44,990 nt of DNA from Okeania hirsuta (GTDB taxonomy: Bacteria; Cyanobacteriota; Cyanobacteriia; Cyanobacteriales; Microcoleaceae): assembly GCF_003838195.1 (NCBI RefSeq), contig NZ_RCBY01000038.1:1-44990 (forward strand). The letters run 5' to 3'. Below are positions 20,819-37,880 of the stretch, one piece after another. A model generated the notes under the pieces. That model made no database searches. It saw only the letters and a list, made by a program, of their open reading frames with translations, and was not told where the DNA came from. Within the stretch, counting starts at the first letter, position 1. Each line of letters starts with the position of its first letter. Made by a program: the position numbers and the translations under genes.

Positions 20819-20950
20819 AAATTCAACCTAGAGAATCGTTTTAATACTTTGACAAGAGGTAGTATGACAATCTGTCGAACTTAATACAAGGCTTTGTAAC
20901 AAAACTTTAGGACATTAATAAAAGATTCAAGCTTGGTTTTAAGTTTTAAT

Positions 20951-21137
<187 letters not shown>

Positions 21138-21506
21138 TAAGTTTTAATAAATCAGATAAATTAATCAGATAAATTAACATTCAATATGATTAACTTCCTG
21201 AATATCAAAGGAAAATTGAAAAACGCAACGAAAAATGTTATTAGCTCTGATGGCAAATTGCATCAGGGTTGTTTTTTTGTTTGGTAGACCCAAAGATAAG
21301 GGATTTGCAACTTAATAAAGTACCGATTATTACTATATAAAAAGTTTCGTGGCTGTCATTGCGAGGCGATAATATTAGACTCAACCTCAATCGGAAATAG
21401 TCAAGCCAGCCGAAGCAATCTCTACTCTATCAATTAATTAGCTGGTAGTCTATTTTTTTGCTAGTCCCTAATCAGAAATTATGTTGAAGATGCAATTTTG
21501 CATTTT

Positions 21507-36846: not shown

Positions 36847-37152
36847 TAAGAGCTGGTTTATAAAGTAAATCTTAAATTAGCTCATCCCCTGACCTTAGGT
36901 GAATCAAAGTGACATAAATCATTGCTTCACTGAATGTTATAGCTATAAGTATTTCCTAAGTCATGCAAGGAAAAAATTTATTTTTTACCCCTTGAAAGGG
37001 GAGGCTTCAAGGCGTGAATTATTTAATTATTAATTCTTCGGTAAAAACTATTACCTATAAGATTTTGAAGTTTTAGAGCTGTCCTAACTTTAGTGCATAC
37101 TGTTATACTTGGACAAGACTTTCTTTAGATTATCTTTATAAATCAACTTTTA
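36847..37152. mobile_element. non-autonomous derivative of the IS5-like element
   Basis: Left end TAAGAGCTGGTTTATAAAGT (with AAATCTTAAATTAGCT inside) and the next 80 bp match 7753 onward. The right end CTTTCTTTAGATTATCTTTA…CTTTTA matches 8796-8833. The transposase region is gone. A different repeat (36983-37046) is nested inside. Confidence 0.7.
36983..37046. repeat. palindromic repeat nested in the IS5-derived element
   Basis: CCCCTTGAAAGGGGAGGCTT and GAATTATTTAATTATTAATT then CTTCGGTAAAA: right half of the family at 13433, 14093 and 33488. Confidence 0.6.
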
Positions 37153-37279
37153 CAGCGGTTTTCATTTCAGTAGACCACAGTAGGGGCGAATGGCATTTGC
37201 GCTCCGCAAAGCTACGCTAACGCCCTTACAAGGTTTTGGTTATGACGATGTGGTTTATCAATCTGAAAAGCGCTGTAAT

Positions 37280-37321
37280 TAAATTAGTTTGGTATTCAGT
37301 AAAAGAATAGATAGGAAATCG
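37280..37321. repeat. 42-bp direct repeat, left copy
   Basis: Identical to 37445-37486 and directly abuts the left end of the mini-element 37322-37444. Confidence 0.85.
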
Positions 37322-37444
37322 GGCATTGGTAATTGACAGGATGATTTATATTTTGGGGTAGCGCCCTCGTTCCTACCCAGGTTAATGATTGACAACCACA
37401 GGGGAATTGTCCCTACAAATTTCATCCTGTGATTTACCAACGCC
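37322..37444. repeat. GGCGTTGGTAA-family mini-element flanked by 42-bp repeats
   Basis: Left end GGCATTGGTAATTGACAGGA, right end reading GGCGTTGGTAAATCACAGGA on the other strand; 123 bp, non-coding. Same terminal sequence as 20951-21137. Confidence 0.75.
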
Positions 37445-37486
37445 TAAATTAGTTTGGTATTCAGTAAAAGAATAGATAGGAAATCG
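37445..37486. repeat. 42-bp direct repeat, right copy
   Basis: Identical to 37280-37321. On the minus strand it reads through as RFPIYSFTEYQTNL, a plausible continuation of the broken gene at 37501-37880. Confidence 0.85.
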
Positions 37487-37500
37487 ACTATTTAAATTTC

Positions 37501-37880
37501 TTAAAGAATTAGAAAATTTATTAAAGTGACAAGTCTATTCACCTCATCAGAGTGGAACATGGCAATATTGATATCATTTTCATATTGGAGAATCATAGTA
37601 TCAATAACTCCTGAAAACTCATCTGCTATTACATCGTGAGCTTTCAGTAATTCTATAGGAATTTTTGATTCTTGAGGACTGGGAGTTTCATAGGGCAATA
37701 AGTAGCGATATGGCTAACGCCACGCTCCGCGAACGCCAATTTCTTTCTCTTCATTACGAACTACAGCAAATTGTGGGTCCTTCCATCCTTGAGCAACTAC
37801 CCTACCATCCCGTTTGATAATTGGTAATTCTTCCCCCACAGCACTGATTTTTTTGTAGACATCCTGATTGACATCCTCCC
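37501..37880 (-). pseudogene. broken gene of unknown function
   Basis: Minus-strand fragments read YKKISAVGEELPIIKRDGRV then VAQGWKDPQFAVVRNEEKEI, then a short palindromic repeat (GGCGTTCGCGGAGCGTGGCG at about 37715-37735) that introduces a stop, then PYETPSPQESKIPIELLKAH and IQYENDINIAMFHSDEVNRL-like sequence to a stop at 37501. A one-base change near 37515 would let it continue into NKFSNSLRNLNSRFPIYSF. The N-terminus is lost at the tnpB element on its right. Family not recognised. Confidence 0.5.

Follow-up and report, generated by a model that had tools for sequence, protein, structure and literature searches.

Two short elements in the window, the 44,990-nucleotide stretch of Okeania hirsuta DNA analysed here, are MITEs of a single non-autonomous family with the ends GGCRTTGGTRA. 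An 8-bp target duplication is the norm of this family, and it is accompanied by rare overlong exceptions, two of which, of 42 and 11 bp, lie inside the window. Duplication length is regarded as a constant trait that marks a transposase family; the family described here offers exceptions that can be counted, and these make it possible to test loose strand transfer against crosses between neighbouring insertions as their source.

Two MITEs and their flanking repeats

The elements and the direct repeats that enclose them are located as follows.

37280..37321, + strand: left copy of the 42-bp direct repeat, without any other genomic match except its right partner
37322..37444, + strand: MITE1, a 123-bp MITE with the ends GGCATTGGTAA / GGCGTTGGTAA; no ORF of at least 80 aa overlaps it
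37322..37344, + strand: left terminal inverted repeat of MITE1
37422..37444, - strand: right terminal inverted repeat of MITE1
37445..37486, + strand: right copy of the 42-bp direct repeat, identical to the left copy
20940..20950, + strand: left copy of the 11-bp direct repeat TAAGTTTTAAT, shared with the same-genus genome G004
20951..21137, + strand: 187-bp MITE of the same family as MITE1; no ORF of at least 80 aa overlaps it
21138..21148, + strand: right copy of the 11-bp direct repeat, identical to the left copy

A preliminary description of the window had placed a 123-bp element between perfect 42-bp repeats and a 187-bp element between perfect 11-bp repeats, and had considered the two to be related, IS-derived elements with duplications of different length and a common terminal sequence, GGCRTTGGTAA. 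Its coordinates are exact: 42 identical bases abut both sides of MITE1, 11 identical bases abut both sides of the 187-bp element, and GGCRTTGGTAA is present without mismatch at all four ends. The kinship and the IS ancestry are borne out as well, since both elements belong to the same MITE family and IS1-type relics carry the same ends. The inverted ends of MITE1 span 23 bp and are 87% complementary, those of the 187-bp element span 25 bp and are 84% complementary; both elements fold better than all of 200 shuffled sequences (z -4.1 and -2.7), with the ends of MITE1 pairing as a stem. With up to one mismatch allowed, GGCRTTGGTAA has eight matches in the window against 1.1 expected.

The own genome is an 8.79-Mb draft in 716 contigs. 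When up to three mismatches are allowed, the 42-mer occurs only at its two places within these 8.8 Mb, and the repeat is therefore duplicated single-copy DNA and not a dispersed repeat. The nearest copies of MITE1 form a 113-bp subfamily in the own genome with 78-80% identity, and the 187-bp MITE has 58 own-genome matches, of which 40 candidates were scored. A short tandem array of AGGAGTC occupies positions 20992-21026 inside the 187-bp MITE; the motif, which is present in longer family copies too, may be behind the length variation of the family. A further copy of 170 bp (locus L008, positions 1501-1670, on G000:C171) seems to have arisen by partial internal duplication of a 113-bp subfamily element.

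A dispersed family of non-autonomous elements

GGCRTTGGTAA has 92 matches in the own genome, compared with three for the reversed control. The variant GGCGTTGGTRA was counted in the window's own genome (G000) and in four same-genus genomes (G001-G004), yielding 181 matches in G000, 165 in G003, 138 in G002, 173 in G004 and 89 in G001, against 3, 3, 3, 5 and 5, respectively, for its reversed control. A stricter pattern that demands paired ends recovers 45 stretches across the GTDB collection, from Okeania, a Microcoleaceae MAG, Trichodesmium, Pleurocapsa and Pseudanabaenales records; one family element occupies positions 451-574 both of G003:C63 and of the Okeania record NZ_JAAHGO010000155.1. 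Paired copies have imperfect inverted ends, and most of them measure between 113 and about 290 bp. The elements are thus short, non-coding and bounded by terminal inverted repeats and flanking duplications, and they are present in many copies with intact ends, as is typical of MITEs. Among the open-access papers listed on these subjects, none is recognisable from its title or the start of its abstract as dealing with Okeania or Trichodesmium MITEs or with an IS1-type MITE with overlong duplications. The family is novel as an IS1-type MITE family, the kind of element is already known, and apart from its rare long repeats the family is an ordinary one in a repeat-rich marine cyanobacterium.

Eight base pairs are the rule

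Duplication lengths were collected from end-pairs lying 60-700 bp apart, each 11-bp end being allowed one mismatch, after removal of sequence duplicates; the census covers fetched loci, which were selected either for their end pattern or for resembling the window elements. Among the 258 end-pairs gathered in this way over several genomes, 163 are flanked by an exact 8-bp repeat and 32 by an 8-bp repeat containing one or two mismatches; exact repeats of 5, 6 and 7 bp flank one, two and four pairs, and longer exact repeats comprise 9 bp (five pairs), 11 bp (two) and 10, 13, 23 and 42 bp (one each). The remainder consists of 29 pairs without a repeat and 16 false pairings with a further end inside them. 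When shared insertions are counted once, 171 independent sites remain that have an exact repeat of at least 5 bp, a number that leaves out the 29 repeat-less, 32 mismatched and 16 false pairs. The exact repeat measures 8 bp at 157 of these 171 sites. It is shorter at six, with 7 bp at three sites, 6 bp at two and 5 bp at one, all of which may be decayed 8-bp repeats, and it is longer at the others, three of which have 9 bp, while lengths of 10, 11, 13, 23 and 42 bp are found at one site each. The five sites with at least 10 bp are spread across four Okeania genomes; the 13- and 10-bp repeats are found in G003 and the 23-bp repeat in G001.

Earlier, smaller passes agree on the 8-bp norm, and in the first two of them only the window copies exceeded 8 bp. 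Non-exact copies contain no longer blocks within their flanks (median 1215 bp) when mismatches are allowed, and no repeat of 43 bp or more turned up as far as the fetched flanks reach, all five long ones being shorter than 50 bp. At one locus (L263) an exact 8-bp repeat sits inside a 14-bp tandem array, giving an imperfect 22-bp block. Repeats of 15 bp came up at loci L320 and L326 in a looser pass with two mismatches per end; they belong to an array with a 141-bp period and are not MITE copies.

From the two unequal duplications in the window the preliminary description had suggested a different mechanism of insertion, such as cuts staggered by varying lengths or repair synthesis. Two copies are too few to infer such a mechanism for a family, and 157 of 171 sites at 8 bp argue that this family does not use one; the idea retains its value as an explanation of the rare exceptions. 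The same description had named a fixed short duplication at all other copies as the observation that would speak against it. The copies nearly conform to this, yet lengths of 10, 11, 13, 23 and 42 bp each occur once. It is important to point out that the tail does not demonstrate a new insertion mechanism; it merits a bigger count.

The long repeats and the search for empty sites

Random pairing of left and right flanks (153 copies, 200,000 draws) produced repeats of at least 10 bp in 0.025% of draws, which is roughly how often a draw would match the left flank of one of the five long copies to its own right flank. The long repeats all lie directly against both ends of their element, and in none of them does the 8-bp comparison succeed; since a true 8-bp repeat would be extended only in periodic sequence, the repeats of 10-42 bp are not 8 bp lengthened by chance. 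The 11-bp insertion is shared with G004 (locus L305), whose flanks agree at 99-100% along 122 and 200 bp, and the presence of the same repeat in G000 and G004 shows that it is not a recent mutation.

Confirmation of the duplication by an empty site rests on one 9-bp site. In the own genome it is empty (locus L076, positions 777-785) and present as a single copy that differs in its last base, whereas it is occupied and present in two copies in G003 (L321), G004 (L401/L421) and G001 (L315), where the elements measure 191, 246 and 215 bp, respectively. For the 42-bp repeat, no empty site was found among the matches listed for the region in 58 relatives (best six candidates per genome), and the 37-base core of the repeat has no counterpart with up to three mismatches in 60 other genomes of the taxonomic family. 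The nearest syntenic region (locus L149 in G004) holds different DNA at this site. A lineage-specific junction lies nearby at 37536/37537: from 37537 onwards to the right, the window is matched in five relatives, and to the left of the junction G004, G011, G016, G008 and, in pieces, G034 share DNA that is absent from the window. A search with the 23-bp case, whose query included the element and was swamped by repeats, showed no empty site among the matches listed (best 40 candidates per genome); none was seen for the 11-bp repeat in G001-G004, where G004 alone aligned across the site and was occupied. The 42- and 23-bp cases are each known from one draft genome.

IS1-type relics and the likely driver

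The profile of the IS1 transposase, PF03400, has 27 matches in the own genome at E ≤0.01, and every one of them contains stops or covers the model only in part. Two relics link such genes to the ends of the MITE family. In the own genome, an 815-bp relic (locus L073, positions 1501-2315) with exact GGCGTTGGTAA ends holds a PF03400 (DDE_Tnp_IS1) fragment that scores 26.8 bits against a cut-off of 24.1, and its flanks agree in seven of eight bases. In G003, both ends of a relic of 1159 bp (L295, positions 786-1944) read GGCGTTGGTGA; this relic contains an IS1-like fragment and is flanked by an 8-bp repeat. Both are decayed. Among the loci fetched there is no intact transposase between exact family ends. 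Four further IS1-like elements of the own genome (754, 778, 816 and 845 bp) are flanked by 8-bp repeats and end in GGCGTTG or GGTGTTG. This comparison of IS1-like elements covered end-pairs whose repeat was no shorter than 6 or 7 bp; no such pair was present at the other PF03400 loci.

Decayed IS1-type genes between the same ends, in the same genus, point to a transposase of the IS1 family as the likely driver, which would move the MITEs in trans. By its ends and the length of its repeats, the MITE family is IS1-derived: an IS1-like duplication of 8, 9 or 10 bp is found at 161 of 171 sites, the window copies with 42 and 11 bp lying outside this range.

Other families can be rejected. Derivation from ISL3 would lead one to expect ends like GGCTCTTCG in place of GGCRTTGGTRA, and the length of the repeat is also against it; in the IS1634 family, ends begin with C and, in IS1549 and IS1634, repeats are long and variable, as opposed to GG ends and 8 bp at 157 of 171 sites. 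An IS66 transposase lies between family ends at one locus (L075); the IS66 element is a passenger there, bounded by separate ends and a separate 8-bp repeat. This locus (positions 171-2011, on G000:C135) is a family MITE that holds the IS66 element, whose repeat reads TACCTGAC.

Origin of the long repeats

We give about an even chance to the explanation that an IS1-family transposase moves the MITEs and that a rare misplacement of the second transfer made the 42- and 11-bp repeats. A DDE transposase of this family would act in trans on the non-autonomous elements and, in its usual reaction, would join the element ends 8 bp apart to opposite strands of the target, resulting in AT-rich 8-bp duplications. 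Occasionally, in no more than a few percent of events, the second strand transfer would land further off, and gap filling would then duplicate the whole interval between the two transfers; the 42-bp (37280/37445) and 11-bp (20940/21138) repeats would be products of such an extended stagger. A single event of this kind, not two ordinary ones, most likely lies behind the 42-bp repeat. IS1 duplications extend up to about 14 bp, and a tail that reaches 42 bp is, to our knowledge, far beyond the range of IS1. A more specific version, which we hold tentatively and consider somewhat less probable, is that the IS1-type transpososome of these cyanobacteria has a loose grip on the second strand of the target and that, as a result, duplications of 10 to more than 40 bp arise at a steady rate of a few percent of insertions. 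If this is true, the family would be a natural intermediate between elements with a fixed stagger and the long-repeat elements IS1549 and IS1634.

The principal rival is a hybrid of two ordinary 8-bp insertions that took place 34 bp apart on two chromosome copies, at TAAATTAG at the start and GGAAATCG at the end of the 42-bp stretch; recombination inside the element, or replicative transposition between chromosome copies, would have joined them and left 42 bp duplicated. Here the canonical 8-bp reaction suffices, and since cyanobacteria are polyploid, occupied and empty chromosome copies could coexist. The sites themselves can be scored as targets. In a scoring built on 160 sites, the first and the last eight bases of the 42-bp repeat are both fair targets (local top 7% and 9%), and an earlier, smaller version on 70 sites places the same two 8-mers in the top 7% and 14% of the window, a weak signal. 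Two target-like terminal 8-mers are what two insertions predict, and they are only mildly unexpected under an extended stagger. However, the hybrid requires two independent insertions 34 bp apart and predicts repeats of any length up to kilobases, and that all five found are shorter than 50 bp favours a misplaced strand transfer over two joined insertions. MITE1 also lacks a visible mosaic breakpoint, though a cross between identical copies would leave none. Overall, we judge the hybrid to be unlikely, about half as probable as the extended stagger. The helical phase of the long repeats, inspected by eye, reveals no pattern.

Still less probable, in our estimation, is that a break arising while the DNA at this place was duplicated or rearranged took up the element, which would then have made no staggered cut itself. 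A precedent, Dup-IS-Dup, is provided by IS481 in Pseudomonas fluorescens, where, in an extract of PMC11708052, the usual 4-bp duplication is absent. The lineage-specific junction described above (37536/37537), which lies 50 bp to the right of the 42-bp repeat, indicates that the neighbourhood has been rearranged in the lineage of the window and so leaves room for such a capture, but the junction may be older and unrelated. Furthermore, the published duplication is large, compared with 42 bp here and 10-23 bp in other members of the tail, and the repeat ends resemble transposase targets: jointly, the ends of the five long repeats look like ordinary target ends (combined p 0.005), which speaks mildly against random breakage, with the 23- and 11-bp sites lacking an individual signal (local fraction 0.49 and 0.37).

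Two further possibilities appear very improbable, and to a similar degree. If the 42 bp had already been in tandem and the element had entered at their junction, the final structure would be the same, but an 8-bp insertion into a tandem yields 8 bp or 8 bp plus the period, as exemplified by the 14-bp array at L263, and not 42 bp; the insertion would have to be free of duplication and to hit exactly one position, and the 42-mer has no other genomic copy. An assembly error is conceivable in a draft of 716 contigs, with the 42-bp case present in a single genome; against this, the 207-bp unit is short and reads or read pairs should span it. The agreement of two genomes on the 11-bp case counts against misassembly there but has no bearing on the 42-bp repeat.

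Comparison with known elements

IS1-family elements and the MITEs derived from them resemble the Okeania family in their inverted ends starting with GG, in AT-rich duplications of about 8 bp and, within the genus, in relics that hold PF03400 or IS1-like fragments between the same ends. In E. coli, IS1 makes duplications of about 8-10 bp and also cointegrates, according to the accessible portion of PMC3031569. Compared with IS1, the window MITEs have no coding capacity and their family has a rare tail reaching 42 bp. Long direct repeats of variable length are shared with IS1549 and IS1634, for which excerpts of PMC2266710 report 8 to 514 bp and propose no model; as far as these excerpts go, long variable repeats are usual in those elements and the family ends start with C, whereas the Okeania MITEs follow an 8-bp rule and have GG ends.

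The Dup-IS-Dup structure of P. fluorescens SBW25 is similar, in the extract cited above (PMC11708052), in that an element parts two copies and the normal short duplication is missing; it differs in its large duplication, as opposed to 42 bp in the Okeania case, and in belonging to the IS481 family. Among cyanobacteria, a Microcystis MITE is described in sections of PMC11448079 as a 187-nt element with ISL3-type ends, a stem-loop and an 8-nt duplication. Judged from these sections, it matches the Okeania elements in its host group, stem-loop, duplication and similar size, and it is set apart by its GGCTCTTCG ends and ISL3 transposase.

A neighbouring inverted-repeat element

A separate, unrelated small inverted-repeat element (TTACAGCGGTTTTCA ... 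TGAAAAGCGCTGTAA) occupies positions 37150-37278 and stops 1-2 bp to the left of the left 42-bp copy. It may be flanked by TA in the manner of IS630-type MITEs. Diverged relatives of this element are present in several of the fetched loci.
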